Shown: one piece after another, positions 14,533 to 35,822 of the stretch | How the letters are laid out: each line of letters opens with the position of its first letter | Position numbering within the stretch: the first letter of the stretch is position 1 | Assembly: GCA_946532115.1 (NCBI GenBank) | Contig: CAMNBC010000008.1 | Span: 1 to 38,226, forward strand | Source of the DNA: an uncultured Treponema sp. | GTDB taxonomy: Bacteria; Spirochaetota; Spirochaetia; Treponematales; Treponemataceae | Direction of reading: 5' to 3' | Length of the DNA stretch: 38,226 nucleotides | Position numbers and translations under genes: made by a program | Notes under the pieces: model-generated | Databases searched by the model: none | Seen by the model: only the letters and a program-made list of their open reading frames with translations | What the model was told of the DNA's origin: nothing

Positions 14533-15017
14533 ACAATTATACCTCACACAAACCTTTTATTTTATGAATCTAACTTAAAGGCTAATTATTTTTTGGGGAC
14601 TAAAAAATAAAGTATGAAAACAGCTCTTAAAAATACAATCTTTTAAAATGAAATTATTGTTCGAAATAGATGTTTAATGTTTTATATATACAAAGAACAG
14701 ATTACTATCATATATATCTAAATTGATTATCTTCTTTATAAAATTCTTATTTTAATTAAAAAATCAGTACCTTATTTAGGCAGGGATAAATTATACATAG
14801 AAAAGATTGTTTCACATTTCAAGAATTCTTAGAAATGATTTTATAACAATTGTTTTTTTAGCATAAACGTGACTTGATAACATATTTTCATTGAAAGTTA
14901 ATTTCATAATCTCATGTAAGAAGACTTCAATCATTAAATTCTACTAAAAGAAGAAAGAAATGAACAATTATTTTTACATGAAAAATCTTTGTTTTATAAA
15001 ATTATTAGATTTTATTA
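14533..15017. other. 485-bp AT-rich gap without a recognisable gene
   Basis: Very AT-rich; the longest minus-strand frame I noticed is about 40 codons (MIEVFLHEIMKLTFNENMLS..., near 14930) and matches nothing I know. No convincing terminator or promoter pair. Its position between two glycosyltransferase genes suggests a deleted gene. Confidence 0.4.
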
Positions 15018-15941: not shown

Positions 15942-15944
15942 TTT

Positions 15945-17078: not shown

Positions 17079-17093
17079 AAAACAATTAAACTC

Positions 17094-18161: not shown

Positions 18162-18226
18162 TCTTTTACTCTCTAAAAAATCTTAATTTTATAATATAAA
18201 CAAACATATAATTTTTTTATAAAAAT

Positions 18227-19120: not shown

Positions 19121-19164
19121 AATAGAAAAGCCTTTTTTTTCGGAATTAAAAATAGTTAAATTTA

Positions 19165-20112
19165 TCAGACATTTATACATTTCTTAATTCTTAATAAAAA
19201 TCTTAAAATAAAACATGGAACTAAGCTTATTATTAGCATAAAAAAACAAGATTTCTTTGTGATACTATTTTTTATAAAAAACCAATTTTCACGAATACTT
19301 TTTAATGAAATTCCACCTTGTAATTTTAATCTTATTAAACCTCTTATTGAAAATAATTTAGTTTTAATTCCATGAGAATATACACACACTTTTTTTGACT
19401 CATACGTATAAAATAAAGGAAGTGAAAAAACAAACAAAAACCATTTTTGACAAAAAATTTCTAAAACTTTGGATTGCCAACCATTCGTTTTTTTTATATA
19501 CAAATTTGAAATACATATATTTGGAATAAAGTGAACTACCCCTTTATTAATCGAAAAATATTCAAATATAATTCCTGTTTGTATAAAATTTGATTCATAA
19601 TACCTCTTAAAATCCGAATTATTAATAACTCTTTCATTAAAAACTAAAACGCTAATCCATGTCAAATGCCATCCAATCTCTTTGAGAAGTTCATTTCCGT
19701 CATAATAAATTTTTTCTTTATCTGAAGAATTTCTTTCCTTTTCTCCAAGAACAATCAAATCAACATCCTCAGAAACTACATAATTCAATAACAGTGATAA
19801 GTTTATCTTATCAATAAAAAGCCCATCTCCTAGTAACCATCTATATTTTCCTTTGGCATGTGTTAGAACAAATTCAAAATTTTTATCAGGACCAATATTT
19901 TCCTTTTGACAATAATATACAATGTTATCAAATTTATTACTGAAAAAATTACAAATACTTTTGGTATTATCTGTAGAACAATTATCTGATATAACAATTT
20001 CTATATCTTTATTATTCACAATTGCACAAAGCTTTTCCAGTGTTTGTTTTATTGAGTTTTCTCTATTATATGTAGGAATACAAATGCTTAAAATAGGATT
20101 ATTTTCTATCAT
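19165..20112 (-). CDS. Family 2 glycosyltransferase
   Basis: A 315-residue GT-A transferase: ILSICIPTYNRENSIKQTLE at the N-terminus, IVISDNCSTDNTKSI, and WLLGDG in place of the DxD site, as in the subgroup where the first Asp is replaced. A hydrophobic, basic C-terminal region (KKSCFFMLIISLVPCFILRF) is probably a membrane anchor. It belongs to the AT-rich strain-specific part of the operon. Confidence 0.75.
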   Translation of the reverse strand: MIENNPILSICIPTYNRENSIKQTLEKLCAIVNNKDIEIVISDNCSTDNTKSICNFFSNKFDNIVYYCQKENIGPDKNFEFVLTHAKGKYRWLLGDGLFIDKINLSLLLNYVVSEDVDLIVLGEKERNSSDKEKIYYDGNELLKEIGWHLTWISVLVFNERVINNSDFKRYYESNFIQTGIIFEYFSINKGVVHFIPNICISNLYIKKTNGWQSKVLEIFCQKWFLFVFSLPLFYTYESKKVCVYSHGIKTKLFSIRGLIRLKLQGGISLKSIRENWFFIKNSITKKSCFFMLIISLVPCFILRFLLRIKKCINV

Positions 20113-21589: not shown

Positions 21590-22471
21590 TTACAATTTTA
21601 AAGAAAAGAATGAAATCAATGATTTCCAATTTGTATCATACTCCAATGCACTAACGTCCGCTACAAGATACATTGGCTGATGAGGATAATACTCTTTCAC
21701 TCCAAATCTCACAGGTACATCAGGTGCAATCTGCTTTTGTAATTCACTCACATATTCGGATAGTAGTCGGCCTTTTCCACTTCCAAGAGGGTATATTTTT
21801 CCATCAACTCCATGTTCTGCAACTGCAAGAAAAGCTCTAGCTGCGTCATCACAATGAAGATAATCCCACATTTGCTCACACTTTGTAAGTTCTGGACTTC
21901 TACCAGCTTTTAGTTCGCGAATCACATAACTTATTAAAGTATTTTCACCATCGTTTGGACCATAAACACTTAAAATACGTATCCAGTTAAAACGAATTCC
22001 AAGTTGTTTGCAAAGCATACCAGAAAATTTTCCAGCAGTATATTTTGCAATTCCGTAACCACTTTCTGGTTTTACTGGTAAATCTGGAGTTAATGGAACA
22101 GTTTGAATACCATATTCAGCTTGAGATCCCGCTCCTATAAACACCTTACAACCGACATGAGCCGCTAATCGTACAGCATCGAGAGTATACTCAATATTTT
22201 GTAATTGACAGTCTACATCATCACGACCACTGACAGAAGTCTTATTCCATGCAAGATGAATAAAAATATCATATTGTCCTATAAGTTTAATTATTTTATA
22301 CTCAGATATATTGCAATAAACAATATTAACACGATTATCTTGTGGTATATTTTTTATACGTGAAGAATCTTTATGAACAAGACATGTAATTTCATAATCT
22401 TGTTTCAAGGCTTCTCGGATTATGGCTGAACCAATCATACCGGTTGCACCTGTTATAATAATCTTTTTCAT
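21590..22471 (-). CDS. NAD-dependent epimerase/dehydratase (extended SDR), candidate sugar ketoreductase
   Basis: A 293-residue extended SDR: GATGMIG nucleotide loop (8-14), Y139-GIA-K143 catalytic pair, and SVYGPNDGENT typical of nucleotide-sugar epimerases and reductases. It overlaps the HAD gene by 4 bases (ATGA) and lies in the TPP enzyme-HAD-SDR run. By analogy with YerF, which reduces the acetyl branch made by YerE, it is a candidate reductase for the product of the thiamine enzyme. A plain 4-ketoreductase or 4-epimerase role is equally possible. Confidence 0.75.
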   Translation of the reverse strand: MKKIIITGATGMIGSAIIREALKQDYEITCLVHKDSSRIKNIPQDNRVNIVYCNISEYKIIKLIGQYDIFIHLAWNKTSVSGRDDVDCQLQNIEYTLDAVRLAAHVGCKVFIGAGSQAEYGIQTVPLTPDLPVKPESGYGIAKYTAGKFSGMLCKQLGIRFNWIRILSVYGPNDGENTLISYVIRELKAGRSPELTKCEQMWDYLHCDDAARAFLAVAEHGVDGKIYPLGSGKGRLLSEYVSELQKQIAPDVPVRFGVKEYYPHQPMYLVADVSALEYDTNWKSLISFFSLKL

Positions 22472-23127
22472 ATTTCTTCCACTAATATTTTCTTTAAGTC
22501 GGAAACTGATTCAGTTATAAAATTACATCCAGATGTTTCTAACTCTTCTTTTGTACCAGTTCCCCAAAGCACACCTATAGACATAATACTATTGTTCAAA
22601 GCAGCTTTACTATCAGTTTCCATATCACCAATTGCCAAAAACTTTTCATTCGGATAATCAGACATACAAAGTGCAAATAATTCAGTTTTAGTTTTGCGTT
22701 TATCATCTGATGATTTCATGTAACTATATGGAGTTATAACTGATGCAAAAAAATTACTCCATCCAAGTTTTTTTAAGATTCTGCTTGTAGCCAAATCAGG
22801 TTTGTTTGTAACAATGTGATGAATAAATCTTGAATCAGCTAGAATTTCCTCAATTTTGTCGAAAGCGGGAGTATTATTAAAACCGCAATTATCGTAATTA
22901 TCTCGAAATGCTTTTATAATTTCAGTTTTTTTTTCAAGTGTAAGGTGCTCAGATGAGAATGCAGCATCTAAAATTTTATCAATTGTTGGACCAACTCTAA
23001 ATGGTGCCTTCTGATCTTTTTCAGAAAGACCTGCTTGCCTGACAGATTTTACTAGAGCTTCTAAAACCTCATTCTCAGAATTAATCAGAGTACCATCTAA
23101 ATCCCAAATTATATGAAGTTTATTCAT
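22468..23127 (-). CDS. HAD-family phosphatase
   Basis: A 219-residue HAD subfamily IA hydrolase: DLDGT (9-13) with nucleophile D9, TNKPD as motif II, KxxT helix region, and GDMETDSKAA as motif IV. It resembles phosphoglycolate phosphatase, but here it sits between the thiamine enzyme and an SDR in a sugar operon. Its substrate is probably a phosphorylated intermediate of the same pathway, perhaps a product of the aldolase. Stop and start overlap (ATGA) with the following SDR; 6 bases separate it from the thiamine enzyme gene. Confidence 0.8.
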   Translation of the reverse strand: MNKLHIIWDLDGTLINSENEVLEALVKSVRQAGLSEKDQKAPFRVGPTIDKILDAAFSSEHLTLEKKTEIIKAFRDNYDNCGFNNTPAFDKIEEILADSRFIHHIVTNKPDLATSRILKKLGWSNFFASVITPYSYMKSSDDKRKTKTELFALCMSDYPNEKFLAIGDMETDSKAALNNSIMSIGVLWGTGTKEELETSGCNFITESVSDLKKILVEEI

Positions 23128-23133
23128 TTTGAA

Positions 23134-24942
23134 TTACAGCGAAAATGCTTCCCCTTTTATAGATTTCATTTCGTCTTCAGGTAAGAATGGATACATATCT
23201 TCCAAAGTTGGAGATACCATTGAACCATCAGGAAGTTTTTTGGATGATAATTTTGGGCTAAAGAATTGATTTGGATTTAGCACTGCTTCAATAATAACAG
23301 GGCCATCCAAATTCAACGCCTTCTGAATATTTTCATTAGAAGTTGAATACTTATCTACTTTTACATATGGAATTTGATAAGCATAAGCAATTCTTTCAAG
23401 AACAGGGAATGACAAATCTCCACTTTCCCGACCTACACCAACTTCACAGTGATTAGAGAAAAGATTTCTTTGAGTTTGTCGTATTGAATGATAGCCATCA
23501 TTATTCAAAATAACAATCTTAAGATTTAATTTATTATGGAATATTGTCTGCAGCTCCTGAATATTCATCTGAAGGCTTCCGTCACCTTCAATACAAATAG
23601 TGCGTTTATCGCCACGTCTTACAGCTACACCTAGTGCAGCAGGAAGACCATAGCCCATTGCAGCACAGCCGGAATTAGTAAACAATCTTGTATTTTTCTT
23701 AATAATTCCAGCCTGGAAGCCTATTACACAGGCACTTCCGTTACTGCATACAACAGCATCATCATCATTAAGATTTTTGAAAAGACAATCTATAAAAGCA
23801 TATGGATTTATAGGGCTTTCTTCTTTTTTCATTTCTGGCAGACAAGCCGGGTAACGAAGATTTATATTATGAGCCCAAGTAGTCCACTTTGAATGGTCAA
23901 CTAAATCAAGGTTTGAACTAGAAAGCTTTTCAATTACATCTTTTACATTTGCATAAAGGGGCATATCAATTTTAAGTGTCGGTTTCATTAATTCTGCAGG
24001 GTCAATATCAACCATTATCTTATATGCATCTTTGGCAAAGTTTTCCCAGTTATAGCTGATTTGTCTTATATTAAGACGGCAGCCTAAAACAAGAAGAAGG
24101 TCAGAATACTGAGCTACAAAGTTTCCGCCACGTGTACCAACAGTTCCCGGACGTCCTGCAAAACACGGATTTTCATCTTCTATTACATCATGTGCATTCC
24201 AGGCCGTAACAACAGGAATACCAAGTTTTTTTACAAGCTTCTGGAAAGCATCATAACATCCACTAAGTCTGATTCCTTCACCTGCAAAAATTACCGGGCG
24301 CTTTGCAGAGTTTAACTTCTTAATTATTTCTTCGATTTTCGAATCTTCAATTTCAAAAGGTATTTCACGGGAATCTTCTGCATTATTGTAGTGATGTAAA
24401 TCATCTGTCTCAATTGTTGCACCCTGAATATTTAATGGAACATCAATCCAACATGGACCAGGACGACCATTCATAGCCAAAAACAATGCTTTTTCTAGTA
24501 TGTATGCAATATCATTAGCATTTTCTACCATTACTGCATATTTTGTCATTGTTTTTACAGTATCAATAATATTGAATTCCTGATCTCCAAGCTGGCGTAA
24601 AGGGACATTTGTTGAACGAATTGTTGTTACAAATTTTACTTGTCCAGAAAGTACCAGCATTGGAATAGAATCAAGCCAGCCTCCCATAACTCCGGTAATT
24701 GCATTTGTTCCACCTGGACCACTTGTTACACAAACAGCAGCAATCTTTCCACTATAACGAGCATAGCCTTCTGCTGCGATAGCACATGCCTGCTCATGAT
24801 GATTATAAGTACTGTGTAATTTTGGATGATGCCCTAATGCATCATTTAAGTGCATCGCACCTCCGCCTGTTACGGTAAAAACATCAGTAATTCCATTGTT
24901 TGCTAAAAAATCAGCAATAAAATCTGCAACTCGCTGTTTCAT
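23134..24942 (-). CDS. Thiamine-diphosphate enzyme of the acetolactate synthase family (YerE-like candidate)
   Basis: A 602-residue ThDP enzyme with three domains. The catalytic glutamate is E50 in NHHEQACAIAAEGYAR, and the ThDP/Mg site is EGDGSLQMNIQELQ. Housekeeping acetolactate synthase would normally sit with ilvN or ilvC; this gene is inside a polysaccharide operon that also makes CDP-4-keto-3,6-dideoxyhexose. In Yersinia the related YerE transfers a two-carbon unit from pyruvate to C-4 of that sugar to build yersiniose. I infer a similar C-branching or acyl-transfer role. It is adjacent to an aldolase, a HAD phosphatase and an SDR, so a different 2-oxo-acid chemistry is possible. Confidence 0.75.
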   Translation of the reverse strand: MKQRVADFIADFLANNGITDVFTVTGGGAMHLNDALGHHPKLHSTYNHHEQACAIAAEGYARYSGKIAAVCVTSGPGGTNAITGVMGGWLDSIPMLVLSGQVKFVTTIRSTNVPLRQLGDQEFNIIDTVKTMTKYAVMVENANDIAYILEKALFLAMNGRPGPCWIDVPLNIQGATIETDDLHHYNNAEDSREIPFEIEDSKIEEIIKKLNSAKRPVIFAGEGIRLSGCYDAFQKLVKKLGIPVVTAWNAHDVIEDENPCFAGRPGTVGTRGGNFVAQYSDLLLVLGCRLNIRQISYNWENFAKDAYKIMVDIDPAELMKPTLKIDMPLYANVKDVIEKLSSSNLDLVDHSKWTTWAHNINLRYPACLPEMKKEESPINPYAFIDCLFKNLNDDDAVVCSNGSACVIGFQAGIIKKNTRLFTNSGCAAMGYGLPAALGVAVRRGDKRTICIEGDGSLQMNIQELQTIFHNKLNLKIVILNNDGYHSIRQTQRNLFSNHCEVGVGRESGDLSFPVLERIAYAYQIPYVKVDKYSTSNENIQKALNLDGPVIIEAVLNPNQFFSPKLSSKKLPDGSMVSPTLEDMYPFLPEDEMKSIKGEAFSL

Positions 24943-24951
24943 TTTTCTATC

Positions 24952-26553
24952 CTAAAAATATTTACTTGGGGTAATTGTTGAAATATTAATTTTATTCTTT
25001 ACAGAATCTATATAAGCTTTTAAGGCTTCATTTCTTAAAGAAATATTAGTTTTGTCATAAAGTAACTTTACATAATCAGAATAATAACAACTGTTCACAT
25101 CTTCTGAATAACCGTCAAAACCTGCAAGCCTTATTGATCTTACACCAATTCTTATAGCAAGATTTACAAGCAACACAAGTGGATTATCATAAATTGCATC
25201 ATTATCTGATTTTAAATTTGCAAAATTAACAATATAATCAACTTTTTCTTTTGCTTCTGTAATATTTGACGTACAAATTAATTTAATATTTTCATTCTGC
25301 GCATAAATTCTGCTAAAGAATTGGCTATAGCGTTTTGAATTTCCCATGAATACATAATCAACAGAAAATTCATCATTCAAAAAGTTTACACTAAATACCA
25401 CTGGATTAGATTTAGAAATATAATTTTTAATCTCAAACTCATTTTCTTTAATAGTTTTTCCAGGAGCTATAAGCAAGATTTCTTTTCCAGAAAGATCATT
25501 TGTTAATTTTGAAATGGACTCTTCATCTTTTACTTCCGTGTTCTGAAAATCCTGATACAATTTTTCGCAAAGATTTTTATCATATAAAAGATTTTTATCA
25601 TTTTCTTTTGGAATTCTTGCTAGAATTTCATTTAACTGTTTTACAGAAAGCGTTTTCTTTTCAAGAAGCTGTGTTACATAGTTAGGATGACATTCATTCA
25701 ATGCTGAAATATAGAACATTGGACGATAGCCCCACTCTTTTTTTGCAAACTCTTTTGTTATATCAATATCTATTGCTTCCTGAATCTGATTTATATCGTA
25801 ATGCTTTCCTAATCTTTCGTTCATATACATAGCAACGAGTTCTGTACACGCATTACCAGCACTTTTTCCCATACCGAACAATGTGCCATCGATTGAAATA
25901 TCACGATTCTTTACATTTTCCATTACGGCAATTGTATTTGAATATGCAAGCTGAAAATTATTATGAGCATGATAACCAAGAATAATATTTTTATTCAAAT
26001 GCTCGTTCATAATATTACAGTAATGAAGAACTTTATCACTATGCATAAGACCATAAGTGTCTACAATCGTAACAGCATATGGGTCAATTTTGTTTATTTT
26101 ATTTATCAGCGAAATCATTTCTTCATCACTGAATGTTGTTACAGAAACAGGATTTACAAAAAGCTTATACCCTTTTTCTTTTATCTGCCGACAAAAATCC
26201 AAAGCCTTATCCTGTAAATGTTTTTTGAAGATTACACGAATTCCATCCAAATGGCTTTCTGATTTCGGAGAAATATGTTCAATACTGCAGGTACCGTAAT
26301 CAATCATAGCCACAACCATTGCATTAGGTTTTTGCATTCCATCAAAAACAGGTTCTATAGATTTCGTATCCGGATAAATTGAACGATTGGGATCATACGG
26401 ACGTCGATCATCAATAAAACCAACTTCTATTGCATCAAGACCGGCACTATCAAGTCGGCTAAAAATACTTTTTATACTACCCGCACCGTATTCCCAGTCA
26501 TTTACATAACCACCATCACGGAGGGTACAATCAAGAAGATATAATTTTGACAT
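24952..26553 (-). CDS. DRE-TIM (HMGL-like) aldolase with a C-terminal Rossmann-like domain
   Basis: A 533-residue protein. The N-terminal TIM barrel (about 1-300) has LLDCTLRDGGYVNDW with D8, R12 and D13, the metal ligands H195 and H197 in GYHAHNNFQ, and a glycine-rich GMGKSAGN loop: all hallmarks of 4-hydroxy-2-oxovalerate aldolase/HMG-CoA lyase enzymes. The C-terminal part (about 345-533, LSGKEILLIAPGKTIKENE onward) looks like a second alpha/beta domain of unknown role. Its partner just downstream is the thiamine enzyme (9-base gap). In catabolic operons such aldolases pair with acetaldehyde dehydrogenase, which is absent here, so it probably makes or trims a 2-oxo-acid or sugar precursor for the polysaccharide. 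Confidence 0.8.
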   Translation of the reverse strand: MSKLYLLDCTLRDGGYVNDWEYGAGSIKSIFSRLDSAGLDAIEVGFIDDRRPYDPNRSIYPDTKSIEPVFDGMQKPNAMVVAMIDYGTCSIEHISPKSESHLDGIRVIFKKHLQDKALDFCRQIKEKGYKLFVNPVSVTTFSDEEMISLINKINKIDPYAVTIVDTYGLMHSDKVLHYCNIMNEHLNKNIILGYHAHNNFQLAYSNTIAVMENVKNRDISIDGTLFGMGKSAGNACTELVAMYMNERLGKHYDINQIQEAIDIDITKEFAKKEWGYRPMFYISALNECHPNYVTQLLEKKTLSVKQLNEILARIPKENDKNLLYDKNLCEKLYQDFQNTEVKDEESISKLTNDLSGKEILLIAPGKTIKENEFEIKNYISKSNPVVFSVNFLNDEFSVDYVFMGNSKRYSQFFSRIYAQNENIKLICTSNITEAKEKVDYIVNFANLKSDNDAIYDNPLVLLVNLAIRIGVRSIRLAGFDGYSEDVNSCYYSDYVKLLYDKTNISLRNEALKAYIDSVKNKINISTITPSKYF

Positions 26554-26563
26554 TACTTTGGCC

Positions 26564-27799
26564 TCAATTACCTTCTTTAAGGAAGGTTATAATAGAAATA
26601 TTTATAAGTTCATATATAAAGAACATTAACGACACTACATCAACTATAATTCTTGTAATATTAAACCAACCAGCATATACAATCTGAATATTCTGTAATA
26701 AAACAATACTAAAGATTAAGAATATAACTGATTCGATTCGTGAAAAATTTTCTTCTTCACTAAAAAATAACAGTATTATTGGGAACAAATATAATCCACA
26801 ATAATATTCACTGTGTGCTGGAAAATACAAAGCAGCCATTATTATTAGCAAAAACTTGTAAAAAATCTTTCTAACTTTGAAAGAAAGTATAATAGCATAA
26901 ACACAAATAACTCGAATGAGAATAGAACTTATTCTAAGGAAGAGATTAGAAATACCATCTGGTGCAGATATTAATTTCTCTAGAGCTTTTCCAAACCAAT
27001 AACATAGATACGGAAGCCCAAATTTTGGATTAAGTTCTACAGCATAAGTTTTAGAATTCCATTTTAGCGTTTCAAGGAAAGTTGGAATTGCCCTAAATCC
27101 ACTCTTAAAGGTTAGGAATGGCAGAAATGTTAAAATAATTCCAAGAATAAAACAATAAACTATAATCTTAAAATCTTTTTTCTGTATATATATTATTCCT
27201 AGAAATACGGGATAAACTTTCAAAACAGATGCAATCACAAGACAAGTTGCCGCAAAATATCTTTCTTTTTTATTATCACTTTCATAAAAAGCAATAAAAT
27301 AATACATAAATGCAGCAGTTACTATAATCCAGTTTCCTCTTTCAACACTAAAAAATAAAAGATTTGATATAAATAACGGTATTAGTATTAACTTACTTAA
27401 ATTGTATTTTTTTACAAAACAGCATAAAGAATGCACAAATAATATAATACTTATTACTATAAATATAAAAGCACATATCATTGCTTGTGGATTTAACCAA
27501 CACTCTTGTAGAGTCATATTATTAAAATCGACTAACCAGATAAATGGATAAAGCAACATATAACTCAATGGCAAATAACATGTATAACCTAAACCTTTTG
27601 GGTTAAGATATACATCTTTATTTGCAGAAAATCTTGCAATGTTAAAGAAATCGGCAAGCAAATCTTTACCATCTGCAAAGAAAATATTCCATTGATGAGT
27701 TGATGGTACAAAAAAAAGTAGAAATAAATGAATAATATAAGATATAAGAATTGAGTATACTAAAACATTTAGTAGTTGCTTTTTATTTGTGATTTTCAT
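26564..27799 (-). CDS. GT-C type membrane glycosyltransferase (GT87/DUF2029-like)
   Basis: A 411-residue protein with about 10-11 transmembrane helices, a large first periplasmic loop (FADGKDLLADFFNIARFS, YTCYLPLSYMLLYP) and charged Asp residues near the start of that loop, as in polyprenyl-phosphate-dependent GT-C enzymes. It directly follows gtrB and shares the operon with gtrA. In phage and Salmonella Gtr systems the third gene is exactly such a serotype-specific membrane transferase that moves the sugar from undecaprenyl-phosphate to the polymer. I infer that role. Confidence 0.7.
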   Translation of the reverse strand: MKITNKKQLLNVLVYSILISYIIHLFLLFFVPSTHQWNIFFADGKDLLADFFNIARFSANKDVYLNPKGLGYTCYLPLSYMLLYPFIWLVDFNNMTLQECWLNPQAMICAFIFIVISIILFVHSLCCFVKKYNLSKLILIPLFISNLLFFSVERGNWIIVTAAFMYYFIAFYESDNKKERYFAATCLVIASVLKVYPVFLGIIYIQKKDFKIIVYCFILGIILTFLPFLTFKSGFRAIPTFLETLKWNSKTYAVELNPKFGLPYLCYWFGKALEKLISAPDGISNLFLRISSILIRVICVYAIILSFKVRKIFYKFLLIIMAALYFPAHSEYYCGLYLFPIILLFFSEEENFSRIESVIFLIFSIVLLQNIQIVYAGWFNITRIIVDVVSLMFFIYELINISIITFLKEGN

Positions 27800-27810
27800 A
27801 TTTCATTACC

Positions 27811-28731
27811 TTAGAAGTTTTTCTCTTCTACAATAAAATTTGGTCTATCACGTGTAGAATCAAAGGTTCTCCATAAATATTCGCCTAATAAGCCCAAGGT
27901 CAACATAATAAATCCAAAGCTAAATAGTTGAAAAATAAATAACAAAGCCCAGCCCTGTACAGAAATTTTACCTAAACATTTTTGAATAAGCACAACAACA
28001 CCCCAGATTAAAGCACCAACAAATGAAAGAAAACCTACTGAAGTAATCAATTTTATTGGTAATGTTGAAAAACTAAAAAGAGTATCCATTACCAATTTAA
28101 CTTTTTTCTTTAATGTGTAGCGACTTTTTCCAATCTGTCTTGCAAGTCTTGTATAAGGGACTTCAGCAGTTTTGAACCCAGCCCATAATATTTGACCTGT
28201 TAGTGCACTATTATTCTCATCAAGTTTAGAAAGTACATCTATTACTTTTCTATCAATCAAATATACATCAAAACCATTTTTGGGCATTGTTTTTAATGCA
28301 AATTTCCTAACCATCCAATAATAAAAATTCGCAAAAAACACTTGTTGATGACTTTCTTCTCTTCCCTTTCTTACAGCAAGAACTACATTATTACCTTCTT
28401 TCCACTTTTCAACCATATCAAGAATCAGTTCTGTAGGTTCCTGTAAATCTGCTGCCTTAAAAACCGCACAATCCCCAGTACAATAATTTAAGCCAGCCAA
28501 AACTGCCGCATGTGAACCAAAGTTTCTTGATAATCTGAGAATCTTAATATTTTTATCTCTTACAGACAACGATTTCATGACTTCATAAGATCTATCTTTT
28601 GAACCATCATCTATCATCACAATTTCATAATCATAATCTATTACATCAATAATCTTTTTCTTTATATCTTCATATAAAGGAACTAGATTTTGTTCATTAT
28701 AATATACAGGTACTACAATTGATAGTTTCAT
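27811..28731 (-). CDS. gtrB: Polyprenyl-phosphate glycosyltransferase, GtrB-like
   Basis: A 306-residue DPM1/GtrB protein. The N-terminal catalytic domain begins LSIVVPVYYNEQNLVPLYED, with a nucleotide-binding VMIDDGSKD and a KAADLQEP metal site. Two C-terminal membrane helices (about 232-252 and 265-287) end in GLLGEYLWRTFDSTRDRPNF, the standard tail of the family. It charges undecaprenyl-phosphate with a hexose on the cytoplasmic side for flipping by GtrA. GAGGAG lies 4 nt before ATG 28731. It is flanked by an SDR and the GT-C transferase. Confidence 0.9.
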   Translation of the reverse strand: MKLSIVVPVYYNEQNLVPLYEDIKKKIIDVIDYDYEIVMIDDGSKDRSYEVMKSLSVRDKNIKILRLSRNFGSHAAVLAGLNYCTGDCAVFKAADLQEPTELILDMVEKWKEGNNVVLAVRKGREESHQQVFFANFYYWMVRKFALKTMPKNGFDVYLIDRKVIDVLSKLDENNSALTGQILWAGFKTAEVPYTRLARQIGKSRYTLKKKVKLVMDTLFSFSTLPIKLITSVGFLSFVGALIWGVVVLIQKCLGKISVQGWALLFIFQLFSFGFIMLTLGLLGEYLWRTFDSTRDRPNFIVEEKNF

Positions 28732-28743
28732 TTTTCTCCTCGA

Positions 28744-29640
28744 TTAATTTTCTTTTACCCATTCAGAAAATGAATATTTTATTACATTACCAAGTTTATT
28801 TTTTAATTTTTCATCATTAAAAATCGTACTGCCAGATTCAATTTTTTTTGCTATTTCAGGCCAATCGATAAAAGATATTTTTACTTTATACTTTTTCGCC
28901 AATAATTCTGCCATTTCTTTCAAACTATAATCTTCACCACCTACATTAAAAACATCATTAATACAGTTTTCTGATAGACCTGCTAAATAAAAAATATTAC
29001 ATAAATCTTTCATATTAATCAGGGTTCGTCTTTGGTGACCATCTCCATACAACACAATATCTTCACCATTTATTGCCTTATTTAACATAAATTCTGCTGT
29101 ACCATAGGAAGATGCACTCTCTATCATCGTCCCATATGGTACACAAATTCTTAAAATACAGTAATTTATACCGTATATTTCATGATACTGCCTCAAATAA
29201 TTTTCACATGCAAATTTATTCAAAGCATATATTGTCTTGAATTCTTTTTCAGCACCTTCTGTTAAAGGAAAATCTTGTCCTTTATAAATAAGCCTAGTAG
29301 AAGGAAATACGATTTTTGCCTTAGATTTTTGATTTATATATTCAGATATAACATTTAACAAAGCAAGTTCATTTATATCTATAAAAGTCTCATAATCAGT
29401 AAAGCCATTTGCACTTCCTGTTTTACCAATAAACATATATATAATATCACAATTCATATTTATCAAAGAAACTGAATCCTTTGACTTTATATTAATCTTT
29501 GAGTACGGAATTTCATCATCTATTTGTTTATCAGAAAAATCATATAGGCCTATGATTTTCATTTCTTCATTTTGATTTATAAAATGAATTAAATTTCTAG
29601 CAATATAACTATTAGCACCGATAATTATTGCTGTCTTCAT
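28744..29640 (-). CDS. Extended SDR, candidate NDP-sugar 4-ketoreductase
   Basis: A 298-residue SDR with a variant nucleotide loop GANSYIA (8-14) instead of GxxGxxG, serine S114 and the Y138-ALN-K142 pair, then VPYGTMIESASSYG and LINMKDLCNIF as in nucleotide-sugar reductases. Its ATG directly abuts the stop of the Gfo/Idh gene (TAAATG). After a 2,3-dehydratase and a 3-ketoreductase, a 4-ketoreductase is what a 2,6-dideoxysugar pathway needs, and this gene is in the right place. A 4-epimerase cannot be excluded. Confidence 0.75.
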   Translation of the reverse strand: MKTAIIIGANSYIARNLIHFINQNEEMKIIGLYDFSDKQIDDEIPYSKINIKSKDSVSLINMNCDIIYMFIGKTGSANGFTDYETFIDINELALLNVISEYINQKSKAKIVFPSTRLIYKGQDFPLTEGAEKEFKTIYALNKFACENYLRQYHEIYGINYCILRICVPYGTMIESASSYGTAEFMLNKAINGEDIVLYGDGHQRRTLINMKDLCNIFYLAGLSENCINDVFNVGGEDYSLKEMAELLAKKYKVKISFIDWPEIAKKIESGSTIFNDEKLKNKLGNVIKYSFSEWVKEN

Positions 29641-30639
29641 TTAAAAGTCTCCAGAAAGTCTTTTGAAATCTTCAACAAGTTTAGCCTGGTTGTGTATATT
29701 TTTATAACTCTGATTTCTTACATCAACATCTAAAATACATTTTTTAAAGTATTGTAAAGAATTATAGAAAGAATCATCCTCGGATAATTTTCTATTTTCG
29801 ATTACATTATTTTTATTTATAGATATTTCTGGAATATAACCTACAGGTGCAGTCAGAATTCTATTTGTATAAAGAGTTCCTTTACTACCCCATACCTCAA
29901 GTTCACATTTATAATTATTATCCATTCCAAAAGAAACTTGAGCTGTTACCCCTTCATTATTAACCAAAGTTGCAGAACCATACATATCTACTTCAAATTG
30001 TTTAAGATAATTACTTTGAGCTGTAGTTATATTTGCTTCTTTCCCAAGAAGCATAGCTGCAAGTTTTAATGTATATCCACCTGCATCTATTAAGGCTCCA
30101 CCACCTAATTTTTTATTATATCGAAAATCATTTATTGCTCTCATTGGGAAGCCAAATGAAATTCTATATAAACGTATCTCTCCTATTTCCCCACTTTGTA
30201 AAATAGTATTAATTTCATCTATTTGTTTATGAAAAACAAACATATAATTCTCGTGCAAAGCTAATTGTTTCTCTTCAGCTAAATTGATTAATGAATCAGT
30301 ATCTTTCAGTAATGTTGTTGATGGTTTTTCAATTAAAACATGTTTTCCATATTTTAACGCTTCATAAGCCCATTTATAATGTAACGCAGGTGGAAGAGGA
30401 ATATATACAGCTTCTATTTCTGTAGAAGAAATTAATTCTCTATAGCTTGAAAATATTTTTCCCCCATAAGCTTCAATCATTTCAGTTGCTTTTTCTTTCT
30501 GTCCAGGTACAGTTTTCCCGTTATTTTCTTCAGCAGACGAAATACCTAGCCCCACAAATTCAAAAGAAGAATCTTTTTTTAAGGCAGGTAAAAAACGTCT
30601 ATGAGCTATTTCAGAAGGGCATATAATTCCTATTTTCAT
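29641..30639 (-). CDS. Gfo/Idh/MocA oxidoreductase, candidate NDP-sugar 3-ketoreductase
   Basis: A 332-residue two-domain oxidoreductase. The Rossmann N-terminus reads MKIGIICPSEIAHRRFLPAL, and E104-K105-P106 in VLIEKPSTT is the catalytic lysine motif of the family. The C-terminal domain contains GGGALIDAGGYTLKLAAMLLG. Start chosen at ATG 30639 (GGTGA 6 nt upstream) rather than TTG 30651. It follows the NDP-hexose 2,3-dehydratase by 17 bases; in 2,6-dideoxysugar pathways (TylC1, SpnN and relatives) the unstable 3,4-diketo product of the dehydratase is reduced at C-3 by exactly this family. Confidence 0.8.
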   Translation of the reverse strand: MKIGIICPSEIAHRRFLPALKKDSSFEFVGLGISSAEENNGKTVPGQKEKATEMIEAYGGKIFSSYRELISSTEIEAVYIPLPPALHYKWAYEALKYGKHVLIEKPSTTLLKDTDSLINLAEEKQLALHENYMFVFHKQIDEINTILQSGEIGEIRLYRISFGFPMRAINDFRYNKKLGGGALIDAGGYTLKLAAMLLGKEANITTAQSNYLKQFEVDMYGSATLVNNEGVTAQVSFGMDNNYKCELEVWGSKGTLYTNRILTAPVGYIPEISINKNNVIENRKLSEDDSFYNSLQYFKKCILDVDVRNQSYKNIHNQAKLVEDFKRLSGDF

Positions 30640-30656
30640 ATCTATCACCAATTTGT

Positions 30657-32042
30657 TTATAAAGGAAGTAATGAAATTAAATTTCGTAATTGTATATTCA
30701 AACAGTTATTTATTTGTGTTAAAAAATTTAAGGTCGCTAAATCACACCATATATATTCATCTATTTCATTTAATTCTTCAGGAAAAGAATCAATCTCAAC
30801 AATCATATTTCTATTTTGTTCATGATAAAAACGCCCACCTTCTTCTGATAACATAGAATCAAATAAGATTTTACAATTTTGGTGGGATTCTGAAATTAAC
30901 ATCCTAAAGTATTTATCAACAAAAGAATCATCTTTTGAATTATGAGAAGGTTCCCATTGTATAGAGGGAGACAATTCGATTTTATCAAAACAACCGATTT
31001 CAGGCTTTATTCTAACAAGAAATTTTCTTTTATTATCAACAAGTTTTGTAATCAAAGCAAATGTTGCACATCCTATTGCTTTAAATAAAGGTTGGAACCA
31101 GCATTGTACCTCTCTTCCTGAAATTTCAATATCATAGTACTTAACCATAAAATCTGAAGTCTTCGTACAAGTGATTCCGTATTCATCAATCGTCCAATCT
31201 ACCAATTGATTTAAAGGTGTCTGCACTACCGAAATTTCTTTAAACATTTTGTAATTATTTATTTTATGATAAATTTGTACCAATTCTTTTTGTATGTCAT
31301 TTGATAAAAATATACTATTATATAAAGCTTTATCTTTAAAATATTTATTTAAATCTTGTTTGGGAGATTCCAATATAAAAGGAATTCCAGATAAAACAGT
31401 TCTAGTATCCATATTCACCAAATTATCAATCTTCATTAATTCTTTTATCTGCCCAAGAGTCATCCATTTAAAATTTTGCAGAACAGGAATTTCATCCTGA
31501 ACAAGCATAATCATATTTCTATTTCGTTTCTTAAGAAAACGAGATGACTGTTCACTCTGAATTTGGTCATATACAACTATATACTTACTTGAATTTTCAA
31601 AATATTCTAAATACGCTGGACTTTTTCCACCATGAGCTCTTGTAAAATTACTTTTTGTTGCCTGAATTGTAGGAGATACCTGAACACAATTAATATTTCC
31701 TGGTTCAATTTTTCCTTGCATTAAAAAATTTAGTTTTCCATCAATTATTTTGCCTATAATTCCAAGATACCCAATTTCAGGTTGATTTATAATCGGCTGT
31801 TCTTTTACAAATTCATGATTTTCAAAGAAACGAACGCCTTTTATTGAAAAGAAACTTCTTTTTCTGTTCAATACTTCACCCATATAATCATCATAAAACC
31901 AGAACGTATCCTTAAATATAGAGGTTTCTTTAATATTTACTTTCGTATTTTCATTTAATTGCTGAACCCATTTTAGTAAATCAGAAGTTTTATTTACATT
32001 ACCTTCTACATCCGCCCAGGATTCTACAAAATAATCAATCAT
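30657..32042 (-). CDS. NDP-hexose 2,3-dehydratase
   Basis: A 461-residue enzyme with the family's internal duplication: QGKIEPGNINCVQVSPTIQ (109-127) matches RIKPEIGCFDKIELSPSIQ (344-362), and RFLKKRNRNMI (168-178) matches RFYHEQNRNMI (404-414). The family (TylX3, EvaA, SpnO) removes the 2-hydroxyl of NDP-4-keto-6-deoxyhexose, the committed step to 2,6-dideoxysugars. It is best known from actinomycete antibiotics, so its presence in a spirochaete surface locus is notable. Its ATG overlaps the gtrA stop by 4 bases (ATGA). The nucleotide is probably CDP, because the only sugar-nucleotide genes in the window are CDP-specific; that is inference. Confidence 0.88.
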   Translation of the reverse strand: MIDYFVESWADVEGNVNKTSDLLKWVQQLNENTKVNIKETSIFKDTFWFYDDYMGEVLNRKRSFFSIKGVRFFENHEFVKEQPIINQPEIGYLGIIGKIIDGKLNFLMQGKIEPGNINCVQVSPTIQATKSNFTRAHGGKSPAYLEYFENSSKYIVVYDQIQSEQSSRFLKKRNRNMIMLVQDEIPVLQNFKWMTLGQIKELMKIDNLVNMDTRTVLSGIPFILESPKQDLNKYFKDKALYNSIFLSNDIQKELVQIYHKINNYKMFKEISVVQTPLNQLVDWTIDEYGITCTKTSDFMVKYYDIEISGREVQCWFQPLFKAIGCATFALITKLVDNKRKFLVRIKPEIGCFDKIELSPSIQWEPSHNSKDDSFVDKYFRMLISESHQNCKILFDSMLSEEGGRFYHEQNRNMIVEIDSFPEELNEIDEYIWCDLATLNFLTQINNCLNIQLRNLISLLPL

Positions 32043-32458
32043 TTTTGACCTTTTACTTTAAATGCCCAAATTTTATTTAACACAAAATTGATTGGCAAAT
32101 TTACAATTATACAAATAATTTGTGCAAAGTATTTTGAAACTGTTAAAATATCTATTAACAATTTCAATTCTGCACTTTGTAGAAATAATCCAGTAATAGA
32201 ATAAGAAAGTAACATTTTTATAAAAGAATACAGTTTAGATCTATCGTCTGCATTATTCTTTTTAAAAACAAAGTAATTATTCCAAACAAAAGCATTTATT
32301 ATACTTATAAAAAAACCAATTGCATTTGCAACAAAATAATTAACATTCACATACACAAGGAAGGTATATATGCCTAGAGATATTATTGCATTCGAGCAAC
32401 CTACTAATCCAAATTTTATGAATTGAACTATATTTTTTTTTGTAAGAAATAATGACAT
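32039..32458 (-). CDS. gtrA: GtrA-like lipid-linked sugar flippase
   Basis: A 139-residue membrane protein with four hydrophobic helices and the GtrA-family opening IVQFIKFGLVGCSNAIISLG, then NYFVANAIGFFISIINAFVWNNYFVF. It is proposed to flip undecaprenyl-phosphate-glucose (or another hexose) to the periplasm. GtrB and the GT-C enzyme lie 3.3 to 5.5 kb further along the same operon, so the trio is split by the deoxysugar genes. It is inserted between rfbH and the 2,3-dehydratase, overlapping the latter by 4 bases. Confidence 0.85.
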   Translation of the reverse strand: MSLFLTKKNIVQFIKFGLVGCSNAIISLGIYTFLVYVNVNYFVANAIGFFISIINAFVWNNYFVFKKNNADDRSKLYSFIKMLLSYSITGLFLQSAELKLLIDILTVSKYFAQIICIIVNLPINFVLNKIWAFKVKGQK

Positions 32459-32483: not shown

Positions 32484-33812
32484 TTATACGCTAGATTTTA
32501 TTACTTCAATCATCTTATCAATCATAGCTTCTGTCATTCCTGGATATACACCAATCCAGAATGTATCACGCATGATTCGATCTGTTACAGAAAGGTCACC
32601 AATTACACGGTAAGCATCAGTTCCACGAATCTGGTCAAAACAAGGGTGACGGGTAAGGTTTCCGGCAAAGAGAGCTCGAGTCTGAATATTTGCTGCTTCA
32701 ATCTTCTTTACAAGTTCTGTTCTGTCTGTTCCTTCTTTACATGTAATAAGGAATCCAAACCAACTTGGGTTACCGTTTTCTACAGGTTCAGGAAGAATCA
32801 GTTTATCCTGTAAACTTTCAAGACCTGCTCTTAGGCGCTTAAAGTTTTCCTTACGTTTTTCTACAAACATTGGGAATTTTTCGAGCTGTGCACAACCTAC
32901 AGCTGCCTGCAAGTCTGTTGCCTTAAGATTGTAACCAAAGTGGCTGTATGTATATTTGTGGTCATATCCAAGAGGGAGTGTTCCAAACTGCTTGTCAAAA
33001 CGATGACCACAAAGGTTATCTTTTCCAGAAGGACAGATACAGTCGCGTCCCCAGTCTCTCATTGAGCGGATAATTTTATGAAGAAGAGGATTACGCGTAT
33101 AAACTGCTCCACCCTCACCCATTGTCATGTGGTGTGGCGGATAGAAGCTTGAAGTTCCGATATCACCTACAGTTCCTGTCTTATATGTTTTTCCGTCTAA
33201 TGTATACTCAGAACCAAGAGCATCACAGTTGTCTTCAATAAGCCAGAGGCTATGTTTTTCACAGAAGACTTTTACAGCTTTAAGATTAAAAGGATTTCCC
33301 AAGGTATGAGCAATCATAACAGCCTTTGTCTTTGGACTAAGTGCTGCTTCGAGTTGAGTTACATCAATATTGTACTGAGGAATTGTTACATCAACAAAAA
33401 CTGGTATTGCACCATACTGAAGGATTGGAGTTACAGTTGTTGGGAAACCACAGGCAACTGTAATAACTTCGTCACCACGTTTTACCTGTCTTTCTTTCAA
33501 AAGCGGAGATGTCAAAGTCATGAATGCAAGAAGGTTAGCAGAAGAACCTGAATTTACAAGAGAAACAAATGGAGTACCTAAATATTCACCAAGCTGTTTT
33601 TCAAACTGGTCTGTATAGCGGCCGCTTGTAAGCCAGAATTCAAGAGCTGAATCTGTAAGATTCATCATTTCTTTTTCATCAAATACACGGCTTGCATAAG
33701 AGATGCGGTCTCCGTCCTTATATTCAGGGCGAACCATAAATTTTTTATAATATTCTTTTACACTGTTTAAGATTTCTTTTGTTGCTTCTTCTTTTGATTT
33801 GTTTTCGAACAT
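32484..33812 (-). CDS. rfbH: CDP-4-keto-6-deoxy-D-glucose 3-dehydrase (E1)
   Basis: PMP-dependent iron-sulfur enzyme that, with a reductase partner, removes the 3-hydroxyl to give CDP-4-keto-3,6-dideoxyglucose. It has the aminotransferase fold, but the PLP lysine is replaced by histidine in SSFYPPHHMTMGEGG. The [2Fe-2S] cysteines follow the E1 order: C in EDNCDAL, then DCIC and, seven residues later, C in NLCGHRF. ATG 33812 is chosen because GGAG lies 6 nt upstream; the ATG 12 bases earlier has no site. About 442 residues. The usual reductase E3 (RfbI/AscD) is not in the window, so a cellular flavodoxin or ferredoxin, or a distant gene, must supply electrons. Confidence 0.95.
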   Translation of the reverse strand: MFENKSKEEATKEILNSVKEYYKKFMVRPEYKDGDRISYASRVFDEKEMMNLTDSALEFWLTSGRYTDQFEKQLGEYLGTPFVSLVNSGSSANLLAFMTLTSPLLKERQVKRGDEVITVACGFPTTVTPILQYGAIPVFVDVTIPQYNIDVTQLEAALSPKTKAVMIAHTLGNPFNLKAVKVFCEKHSLWLIEDNCDALGSEYTLDGKTYKTGTVGDIGTSSFYPPHHMTMGEGGAVYTRNPLLHKIIRSMRDWGRDCICPSGKDNLCGHRFDKQFGTLPLGYDHKYTYSHFGYNLKATDLQAAVGCAQLEKFPMFVEKRKENFKRLRAGLESLQDKLILPEPVENGNPSWFGFLITCKEGTDRTELVKKIEAANIQTRALFAGNLTRHPCFDQIRGTDAYRVIGDLSVTDRIMRDTFWIGVYPGMTEAMIDKMIEVIKSSV

Positions 33813-33828
33813 GTTATTCTCCATTATC

Positions 33829-33891: not shown

Positions 33892-34953
33892 TTATACATT
33901 AAAATATTCTTTTATCTGTTTATCTGTAATTTCTGCAGCAAAAATACCACTCTGCACAGCCTTTTCCCATTCAACAATCTTTTTCATTGCATCCCGGATT
34001 CCCCACTGTGGATACCAGCCAAGCACTGTTTTTGATTTTGAACAGTCAAGCTTTAAGAAGTTTGCTTCGTGTGGTGCATTAGCTTCACTAACATTCTTCC
34101 AAGCAGCGCCATTACCCCAGTTTTCGCAGAACAAAGTTGCAAGCTGGCCTGTTGTTACACAAGATTCATCATCAGGGCCAAAATTATAAGAACCTACAAA
34201 TGATTTGTTTTCATACTGAGCCTTTGCCAAAGTAAGATACCCCCGAAGACATTCCAGCACATGCTGATATGGACGGGTTGAATTAGGATTACGAAGAATT
34301 ATTTCTTTTCCTTCTTCTACTGCACGAATACAGTCTGGAATAATTCTGTCTGTTGCATAATCTCCACCGCCGATTACGTTTCCACTGCGGGCAGTTGAAA
34401 TTGCAGGTGAAGTTTCTTCATTAAAGAATGAATTACGATAGCTGTAAGTAACCAACTCTGAACAAGATTTACTGTTAGAATATGGGTCATAACCACAGAG
34501 TTCTTCATTCTCACGATAGCCCCAGGCCCATTCTTTGTTCAGGTAAACTTTGTCTGTTGTAATGTTTACAAAGGATTGTACTGTATCACAGGCACGAACT
34601 GCTTCCAGAATATTTACAGTTCCCATTACATTACTTTCGTAAGTTCCGACAGGATCTTTGTATGAAGTTCTGACTATTGGCTGAGCAGCAAGATGAAGAA
34701 CAATATCAGGCTTTGCTTCTACAAGAGCAGCCTTCAACTTTGCACCATCACGAATATCACCAATAATAGACTTCATCTGACTTGCAATATTAGTCTGCTC
34801 AAAAATGCTTGGATTTGTAGGAGGTTCAAGAGAATAACCAGTAACTTCTGCACCCGCTAAAATCAGAATACGACTGAGCCAGGTTCCTTTGAAGCCGGTA
34901 TGGCCGGTTAGAAAGACTTTTTTTCCTTTATAAAAGTTTAATATTTCGTTCAT
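33892..34953 (-). CDS. rfbG: CDP-glucose 4,6-dehydratase
   Basis: Converts CDP-glucose to CDP-4-keto-6-deoxyglucose. Extended SDR with KKVFLTGHTGFKGTWL at the N-terminus (nucleotide loop about 17-23), NITTDKVY, and the catalytic pair in DPYSNSKSCSE, then SARSGNVIGGGDYATDRIIP, all standard for RfbG/DdhB. Start chosen at ATG 34953 (AGGTAA upstream), giving 353 residues; the longer reading would run through the palindromic repeat. Sits between rfbF and rfbH in the order of CDP-dideoxyhexose clusters. Confidence 0.96.
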   Translation of the reverse strand: MNEILNFYKGKKVFLTGHTGFKGTWLSRILILAGAEVTGYSLEPPTNPSIFEQTNIASQMKSIIGDIRDGAKLKAALVEAKPDIVLHLAAQPIVRTSYKDPVGTYESNVMGTVNILEAVRACDTVQSFVNITTDKVYLNKEWAWGYRENEELCGYDPYSNSKSCSELVTYSYRNSFFNEETSPAISTARSGNVIGGGDYATDRIIPDCIRAVEEGKEIILRNPNSTRPYQHVLECLRGYLTLAKAQYENKSFVGSYNFGPDDESCVTTGQLATLFCENWGNGAAWKNVSEANAPHEANFLKLDCSKSKTVLGWYPQWGIRDAMKKIVEWEKAVQSGIFAAEITDKQIKEYFNV

Positions 34954-34977
34954 TATTTTATTACCTGTTTTGTATGG

Positions 34978-35028
34978 ATTGTCGGGTCTAGGCCGACAAT
35001 GACACATTAATCGAGTTCGGAATGACAG
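34978..35028. repeat. Hairpin and relic of the palindromic repeat between rfbF and rfbG
   Basis: ATTGTCGG (34978-34985) pairs perfectly with CCGACAAT (34993-35000) around a 7-nt loop. It is followed by GAGTTCGGAATGACAG, which resembles the right half of the unit at 33829-33889. Probably a degenerate member of the same family. Confidence 0.6.
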
Positions 35029-35036
35029 ACTCCTGA

Positions 35037-35822
35037 TTACTTCTTAAAATGTCCCCAAACATCCCAAGGTGCTTTTTCTGTAGCCCAAAGCTTATTCAAA
35101 TCTTCCTTATCTTTAAGCATATCCATTGGATGCCAGAAGCCATCATGTTTATAAGCATGGAGCTGCCCGTCTTTTGCAATATTCTGAAGAGGAGCACGTT
35201 CCCACATAATGTCGTGTGAATCTGCAGGAATATAATCGAGAGCTTTATTTTCACAAACAAAAAAACCGCCGTTTATCCAGTTGTCACTTGGTTTTTCCTG
35301 GAACTGACTGATTGTTCCATCAGCCTGAATCTCAAGAGCACCAAAACGACCTTCTGGTTTTACAGCGGTTAAAGTAACGAGTTTTCCGGATTTAGCATGT
35401 GAATCTACAAGTTTTGAAATATCAACATCAGAAACTCCATCTCCGTATGTAAGCATGAAAGGTTCGTTTCCAATGTAAGATTTTGCTTTAGCAATACGAC
35501 CGGCTGTCATTGTATCTGGGCCTGTATAAAGCATTGTAACAGTCCATGGCTCTGTGCGCATTTTATGAATCTGCACATCATTGTTGGCCATATCAATGGT
35601 CATGTCTGAATAGCGGTTATAGTAATTCAAAAAGTAATCTTTAATTACATGACCTTTGTAACCGGTAAGAATGACAAAATCGTTATAGCCGTAGTGGCTA
35701 TAGATTTTCATAATGTGCCAGAGAATTGGATATCCTCCGATTTCAACCATAGGTTTTGGGATGAGCTTTGTTTCTTCACCAAGACGTGTACCCATTCCAC
35801 CAGCGAGGATAAGTGTTTTCAT
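35037..35822 (-). CDS. rfbF: Glucose-1-phosphate cytidylyltransferase
   Basis: Makes CDP-glucose from CTP and glucose-1-phosphate, the entry step for CDP-linked deoxysugars. 261 residues, the family's usual length, with LAGGMGTRLGEETKLIPKPM (7-26), the YGDGVSDVD metal site and INGGFFVCE. ATG 35822 has AGGAT 7 nt upstream. It is the first gene of the polysaccharide operon, behind a long leader. Confidence 0.97.
   Translation of the reverse strand: MKTLILAGGMGTRLGEETKLIPKPMVEIGGYPILWHIMKIYSHYGYNDFVILTGYKGHVIKDYFLNYYNRYSDMTIDMANNDVQIHKMRTEPWTVTMLYTGPDTMTAGRIAKAKSYIGNEPFMLTYGDGVSDVDISKLVDSHAKSGKLVTLTAVKPEGRFGALEIQADGTISQFQEKPSDNWINGGFFVCENKALDYIPADSHDIMWERAPLQNIAKDGQLHAYKHDGFWHPMDMLKDKEDLNKLWATEKAPWDVWGHFKK

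Follow-up and report, generated by a model that had tools for sequence, protein, structure and literature searches.

The minus strand of a 38,226-nucleotide stretch of DNA from an uncultured Treponema sp. (NCBI GenBank assembly GCA_946532115.1, contig CAMNBC010000008.1; hereafter the window) carries an operon that quite probably makes a 4-C-branched 3,6-dideoxysugar, activated with cytidine diphosphate (CDP), for a surface glycan, using a branch donor produced by its own aldolase and HAD phosphatase. Judged by sequence, the system is one of YerE-type branched-sugar biosynthesis in which the aldolase-phosphatase donor module is the novel part. The window corresponds to contig C8 of a 73% complete, 2.45 Mb bin whose nearest named relatives are treponeme bins. 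The genes that carry this proposal are listed in transcription order, with thiamine diphosphate abbreviated to ThDP:

35037..35822, minus strand: RfbF, glucose-1-phosphate cytidylyltransferase (TIGR02623, 364 bits vs. a cut-off of 300)
33892..35007, minus strand: RfbG, CDP-glucose 4,6-dehydratase (TIGR02622, 459 vs. a cut-off of 278)
32484..33824, minus strand: RfbH, CDP-4-keto-6-deoxyglucose 3-dehydratase (NF011936, 707 vs. a cut-off of 423; C-x-C-x7-C at 262-272)
24952..26553, minus strand: DRE-TIM (HMGL-like) aldolase with a fused C-terminal domain (PF00682)
24952..25542, minus strand: C-terminal domain of the aldolase, residues 338-533 (sialyltransferase/MptE fold predicted by comparison of an AlphaFold2, or AF2, model)
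23134..24942, minus strand: YerE-like ThDP-dependent enzyme, putative carboligase (PF02776/PF00205/PF02775; JanthE 8rph, E 5e-115, residues 2-593)
22468..23127, minus strand: HAD phosphatase, putative donor phosphatase (PF13419, 2e-15; DLDGT motif at residue 9)
21590..22471, minus strand: SDR1, extended SDR, putative branch-ketone reductase (PF01370, 3e-37; GATGMIG and YGIAK motifs)

The last four genes (aldolase, ThDP enzyme, HAD, and SDR1; hereafter the cassette) are spaced by 9 bp, 6 bp, and a 4-bp overlap, and all have ATG starts. They belong to a 14-gene run that begins with rfbF (35822) and ends at a membrane protein gene (20228), with intergenic gaps of -4 to 67 bp. The original prediction, made from the letters of the window, of four consecutive genes with short gaps or overlaps was therefore borne out, with every open reading frame (ORF) found where it had been placed. 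The same is true of their location downstream of CDP-dideoxysugar genes, as rfbF, rfbG, and rfbH are part of the same operon, with six genes between rfbH and the aldolase. Because RfbF, RfbG, and RfbH all pass their NCBI equivalog cut-offs, the predicted supply of CDP-4-keto-3,6-dideoxyglucose is well founded.

In the proposed pathway, RfbF, RfbG, and RfbH, as recognized by curated models and with substrates taken from known pathways, would yield CDP-4-keto-3,6-dideoxyglucose. The aldolase would join pyruvate to a phosphorylated aldehyde, and the HAD enzyme would remove the phosphate from the resulting phosphorylated 4-hydroxy-2-oxo acid. The ThDP enzyme, whose family is assigned below, would then split off CO2 from the 4-hydroxy-2-oxo acid and attach the remaining acyl group at the C4 ketone, giving a tertiary alcohol, and SDR1 would turn the ketone of the new branch into a hydroxyl. 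This sequence of steps would leave a branch with 1'-OH, 2'-CH2, and 3'-OH, which is the aldol pattern of caryophyllose. The scheme builds on what is established here, namely the families to which the ThDP enzyme, RfbF, RfbG, and RfbH belong, their co-occurrence, the exchange of donor modules among relatives, and the fold of the extra aldolase domain.

Of 148 related genomes, 16 encode RfbH and 16 a YerE-like ThDP enzyme, the latter counted from matches of at least 272 bits (a cut set after viewing the list; the next matches, from 247 bits, are acetolactate synthase-like). Both occur in 15 genomes, with a Fisher p of about 2e-18 that is optimistic given shared ancestry. In the sixteenth ThDP-bearing relative (G137), rfbF and rfbG adjoin the ThDP gene. 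RfbH is present in 11/11 relatives that have both the aldolase and the ThDP enzyme (p 3e-13). In a twelfth relative (G010), the aldolase is only a fragment, cut off by the end of a contig, together with HAD and SDR genes, and no RfbH was found.

A wider survey comprised 98 loci (numbered with the prefix L) from Spirochaetes, Firmicutes, Bacteroidales, Fibrobacter, and two archaeal bins, many of them on stretches that end at contig edges. Because similarity to the fused aldolase was the criterion for choosing these loci, the survey shows the partners of the aldolase rather than their frequencies. A ThDP gene lies within 4.5 kb in 70 loci (ThDP-type) and a KdsB/NeuA-like CMP-transferase, acting with cytidine monophosphate (CMP), in 18 (CMP-type), with both in 0 and neither in 10. 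At least one rfbF/G/H gene is present in the fetched stretches of 46/70 ThDP-type loci, and rfbH itself in 38/70; rfbH is absent from all 18 CMP-type loci. Fourteen genomes have a ThDP locus without nearby rfb genes, and 12 of these encode RfbH elsewhere (67-72% identity). GtrA homologs occur within 16/70 ThDP-type loci, and in another family one locus (L037) is a contiguous rfbF-rfbG-rfbH-ThDP-aldolase-HAD-SDR run. This arrangement of the cassette is far from chance. With RfbF, RfbG, and RfbH above their cut-offs, the co-occurrence of the ThDP enzyme and RfbH supports the idea, put forward originally, that the ThDP enzyme acts on a CDP-4-keto sugar, and these counts contradict a cassette that occurs mainly without 4-keto-sugar genes. 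Culturable strains that bear the cassette include Clostridium thailandense PL3, Selenomonas artemidis DSM 19719, and [Clostridium] aminophilum DSM 10710. An aldolase of the cassette type is also present in two Methanomassiliicoccaceae archaeal bins (L084 and L121), accompanied in L121 by ThDP and SDR genes, which could reflect gene exchange across domains or a binning error.

The ThDP enzyme belongs to the YerE-like family and has active-site features of its own, given its score against JanthE, its shortfall against the acetolactate synthase model TIGR00118, its place in the tree, and its residue differences. Its best solved relative is 8rph (388 bits, residues 2-593; best acetohydroxyacid synthase [AHAS], 243 bits), which we take to be JanthE of Janthinobacterium sp. 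HH01, although its Protein Data Bank (PDB) title reads only thiamine pyrophosphate-binding protein. This identity is supported by the 8rph sequence, in which the CDG motif, P293, and Y297 agree with the positions given for JanthE (PMC12188165). JanthE, the only YerE-like reference sequence in our comparison, is described as a YerE-like enzyme (PMC12188165, PMC12247030) whose natural substrates are unknown (PMC12188165). The tree places JanthE among the cassette ThDP enzymes, and nine AHAS, including that of the same genome as the window, fall outside at 100/100 support. Two wrongly picked ORFs (L144 and L145; end branches of 9-10) were left out of the tree, and the AHAS rows of the residue comparison include both. 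The window enzyme carries the catalytic E50 and the GDG...NN motif (G453-D454-G455, N480-N481). In the active-site region, D120 and V268 replace the F and H of the AHAS type, and Y297 is common with JanthE. JanthE differs in having CDG, P293, and V at the D120 position, where the window enzyme has GDG, R293, and D120; the JanthE counterparts of the compared positions are described as active-site residues (PMC12188165).

These comparisons also bear on whether the gene encodes a plain acetolactate synthase, or otherwise serves 2-oxo acid metabolism, and is merely carried in the polysaccharide island. Similarity to AHAS large subunits (342 bits against TIGR00118) and an R293 in common with AHAS would fit this. 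However, the score lies under the TIGR00118 cut-off of 538 (538.35), a separate ilvB-type AHAS gene of the same genome reaches 645, and the tree, the residue differences, and the tight co-occurrence with RfbH all point elsewhere. We therefore reject acetolactate synthase identity and consider this explanation highly improbable, in agreement with the YerE-family identity first proposed from the sequence. In plasmid records, the ThDP query matched acetolactate synthases only and the aldolase query distant aldolases only.

Donor synthesis is the best reading of the aldolase, because donor modules interchange in relatives, because of the donors used by the related enzyme ErwE, and because of the branch pattern of caryophyllose. 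The aldolase belongs to the DRE-TIM metallolyase superfamily, with an Asp/His/His metal site (D13, H195, and H197). Together with R12, these residues are invariant in the surveyed loci wherever the region is present. The AF2 model has a mean predicted local distance difference test score (pLDDT) of 91. The nearest solved structure is 3dxi, BVU_2661 of Bacteroides vulgatus, of which the N-terminal domain alone was solved and deposited as a "putative aldolase." This is followed by 4-hydroxy-2-oxovalerate aldolases, and the fold matches 3dxi and 1nvm. The window enzyme resembles DmpG/BphI-type 4-hydroxy-2-oxovalerate aldolases in its DRE-TIM fold and metal-site residues but differs in having a Tyr (Tyr16) for the catalytic His, a C-terminal domain of sialyltransferase fold, and no match to the DmpG communication domain; moreover, no acetaldehyde dehydrogenase partner was seen in the window.

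Three donor set-ups occur on the rfb-ThDP core: none, a DmpF-DmpG pair, and the fused aldolase with HAD, as in the window and most of the survey. Two loci (L159 and L160) have rfbF, rfbH, an acetylating acetaldehyde dehydrogenase (DmpF; TIGR03215, 367-372 bits, cut-off 282), and a 4-hydroxy-2-oxovalerate aldolase (DmpG; TIGR03217, 361-364, cut-off 286). A DmpF-DmpG pair makes 4-hydroxy-2-oxopentanoate. The DmpG of L159 carries the communication domain, and this locus also has a YerE-like ThDP gene, while L158 has rfbF, an acetaldehyde dehydrogenase, and a ThDP gene, with RfbH and an aldolase-type match on the same contig. The contents of the donor slot in relatives, DmpF and DmpG among them, give the strongest new support to the earlier suggestion that the cassette makes its own oxo-acid donor. 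The known donors of ErwE and MMAR_2332 are 4-hydroxy-2-oxo acids, and ErwE prefers hydroxylated donors and rejects pyruvate (PMC12247030), so the proposal extends chemistry in which aldol-type donors are already established. The branch of caryophyllose is 1,3,4,5-tetrahydroxyhexyl (PMC5706390), and we infer that the CH2 between its C1' and C3' is the trace of pyruvate in an aldol reaction.

The treponeme loci L159 (1713-5743), L160 (147-3390), and L158 are themselves candidates for an erwiniose/aurantose-like pathway, and L159 also has an HpcH/HpaI aldolase. Perhaps another donor-supply design is found at L050 (7163-9839), an rfbFGH-ThDP locus with two unfused aldolases and a split transketolase pair. 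In addition, an AroB-related gene occurs in eight ThDP-type cassettes (L034, L060, L073, L077, L081, L107, L115, and L117) and could cyclize the branch; the copy at L034 (12506-13570) scores above the cut-off of TIGR04425, "putative sugar phosphate phospholyase (cyclizing)." A cyclization of this kind would be required for bradyrhizose, a bicyclic sugar.

The HAD enzyme fits as the putative donor phosphatase. An ORF with HAD motifs lies on the same strand within 5 kb in 48/72 ThDP-type loci (two loci counted twice) and 14/18 CMP-type loci. Three HAD subfamilies fill this slot: that of the window, a KdsC type (L034 and L117), and a HAD-IIA type (L040). A phosphorylated aldol product is suggested because these non-orthologous phosphatases replace each other. 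SDR1 was found in 51/70 ThDP-type loci and 0/18 CMP-type loci.

Several observations nevertheless weigh against our proposal. The survey proportions are not unbiased, and about one third of the ThDP-type loci had no detected HAD. The aldolase scores far under the 4-hydroxy-2-oxovalerate aldolase cut-offs (PRK08195, 93 vs. 229; TIGR03217, 83 vs. 286), and the residue at the DmpG catalytic His (motif LRDGxH) is Tyr in 67/70 ThDP-type loci. Given these low curated scores and Tyr16, the proposed aldehyde substrate, and even aldol chemistry, must be regarded as tentative. Clustering of neighboring genes for one that might supply the aldehyde yielded mostly antisense ORFs and membrane glycosyltransferases. 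In the ThDP enzyme, R293 matches AHAS and not JanthE. A search for an RfbI-type reductase gave nothing in the window and, elsewhere in the 73% complete bin, one short Fer2 match. Finally, three loci (L162, L163, and L164) have rfbFGH, ThDP, and SDR genes without an aldolase and are yersiniose-like.

These aldolase-free relatives would fit a yersiniose-type pathway, in which the ThDP enzyme adds an acetyl branch from plain pyruvate, the SDR reduces it, and the aldolase and HAD serve something else, such as an ulosonic acid. The occurrence of the same aldolase beside CMP-sugar transferases with HAD in 18/98 loci could be read likewise. Yet none of the 70 loci that pair the aldolase with a ThDP gene has a CMP-transferase, nor was one seen in the window, and the DmpF-DmpG pair in the same slot points to donor supply. 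We thus regard a yersiniose-type pathway as unlikely and favor a donor made by the aldolase and HAD.

About 200 C-terminal residues of the aldolase lie outside the Pfam match (PF00682, limited to residues 4-259). The original prediction had called this domain unexplained; it is indeed an extra domain with no significant Pfam or PDB sequence match, but its fold can now be assigned to the sialyltransferase (CMP-binding) type on the basis of the AF2 model (pLDDT 91). In the fold comparison (VIA), it matches the GT42 sialyltransferase CstII (1ro8; Z 12.3 over 161 residues, 2.9 A) and archaeal HPPK/MptE (8sd5; Z 12.2). Mammalian sialyltransferases and the Maf and SteA proteins match as well, and beyond these Z drops from 8.6 to 4.3. 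Across the surveyed loci, G365, N390, N430, G478, D480, and G481 are nearly invariant, and residues 338-533 contain no conserved His, as judged by column conservation. The GT42 catalytic base may therefore be missing. The domain thus shares its fold with CstII, MptE/HPPK, and Maf (Z 10.8-12.3) but differs in lacking a nearly invariant His and significant sequence similarity. It could possibly be a regulatory (feedback) or docking domain that binds CMP or CDP, a role that is attractive because both gene contexts of the aldolase make cytidine-nucleotide sugars but that is also the weakest step of our scheme. The chemistry does not depend on the domain, since the two aldolases of the cassette locus L050 are without it.

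In the 18 CMP-type loci (L042, L046, L048, L049, L085, L105, L106, L125, L126, and others), the fused aldolase lies beside a KdsB/NeuA-like CMP-transferase. In most cases a HAD or KdsC phosphatase is present as well, whereas a ThDP gene never is. These loci may represent a pyruvate-aldolase route to ulosonic acids. A broader and more tentative idea, which we consider possible but doubtful, is that the fused aldolase defines a phosphoenolpyruvate-independent route to 3-deoxy-2-ulosonic acids, from pyruvate and a sugar phosphate followed by HAD. Such a route would have two outlets: CMP activation in KdsB/NeuA-like clusters and YerE-like decarboxylative transfer onto CDP-4-keto sugars in rfbFGH clusters. 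The sialyltransferase-fold domain would then sense or dock the shared cytidine-nucleotide product.

Six genes separate rfbH from the aldolase in the window:

32039..32458, minus strand: GtrA-like membrane protein (PF04138)
30657..32042, minus strand: NDP-hexose 2,3-dehydratase (PF03559)
29641..30651, minus strand: Gfo/Idh/MocA oxidoreductase (PF01408/PF22725; 37% homolog in L157)
28744..29640, minus strand: SDR2 (PF01370; 45% homolog in L157)
27811..28731, minus strand: ArnC/PgfS-like GT2, probably a polyprenyl-phosphate sugar transferase (PF00535; PgfS model 215 bits, under the cut-off of 500)
26564..27799, minus strand: GT87-like membrane glycosyltransferase (PF09594)

The genes at 27811-32042 are probably a separate 2,6-dideoxysugar module inserted into the operon, since one relative (G095, locus L157) keeps the 2,3-dehydratase-Gfo-SDR2-GT2 set on a contig apart from its cassette, near a nucleotide-sugar dehydratase homolog, while its rfbFGH-ThDP-aldolase-HAD-SDR run is uninterrupted. 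Alternatively, the 2,3-dehydratase and Gfo/Idh/MocA enzymes might act before RfbH, so that the same branching chemistry takes place on CDP-4-keto-2,3,6-trideoxyhexose; forosamine biosynthesis in the spinosyn pathway is a precedent for these two enzymes acting before an RfbH-type step. The position of both genes between rfbH and the cassette is consistent with this, as is the restriction of PF03559 to 2/148 relatives, both of them cassette bearers. However, the separate contig in G095 speaks against it, and the other surveyed cassette loci gave no PF03559 match, so we give the trideoxyhexose acceptor only a slim chance and retain CDP-4-keto-3,6-dideoxyglucose.

Among known systems, the yersiniose A pathway of Yersinia pseudotuberculosis shares with the window the genes for a CDP-4-keto-3,6-dideoxyglucose acceptor, a YerE-family ThDP enzyme, and an SDR partner. 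By contrast, YerE prefers pyruvate (PMC12247030), and the window cassette adds an aldolase and a phosphatase, which upholds the initial view that these additions may make it a new variant. The erwiniose system of Pectobacterium atrosepticum (ErwE) and the caryophyllose system of Mycobacterium marinum (MMAR_2332) resemble it in having YerE-like ThDP enzymes with 4-hydroxy-2-oxo acid donors (PMC12247030), and erwiniose is a 10-carbon sugar (PMC8657720). They differ in that the fused aldolase and HAD of the window represent another aldolase lineage than the DmpG of the relatives. The enzymes that make the ErwE and MMAR_2332 donors were not named in the open literature searched. Likewise, we found no description of an aldolase-HAD-ThDP set in the literature, mostly open papers, in which absence is not proven. 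Aurantose of Spirochaeta aurantia has a predicted enzyme, SpirE (PMC12247030), for which no named record was found for comparison.

Elsewhere in the window, positions 14000-20000 have a G+C content of 22-25% vs. about 44% at the window start, which fits an acquired polysaccharide island. Two genes for phosphomannose isomerase, equal in size (291 aa), lie at 8232-9107 and 11967-12842. A ManC-like gene at 12845-13624 matches the nucleotidyltransferase domain profile only at positions 93-244 and is probably truncated or has a broken start. AAA_15/AAA_21 ATPases at 36180-37932 and 6865-7965 border the polysaccharide region and are possible defense genes; one of them adjoins a weak NERD nuclease-like gene (under cut-off).

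Gene-cluster listings include many YerE-like enzymes, and the sugar structure is unknown for most (PMC12247030). If our proposal is true, the neighboring aldolase and phosphatase would indicate how long the branch is and how it is oxidized, allowing a structural prediction from a gene cluster. It would also provide modular enzymes for C-C bond formation and give a testable role to a sialyltransferase-fold domain fused to an aldolase. The cassette is spread across gut and rumen Lachnospiraceae, Oscillospiraceae, treponemes, Bacteroidales, Fibrobacter, and the two Methanomassiliicoccaceae bins, and because it is so widespread, the gut may commonly contain long-chain branched sugars that have mostly gone unnoticed.

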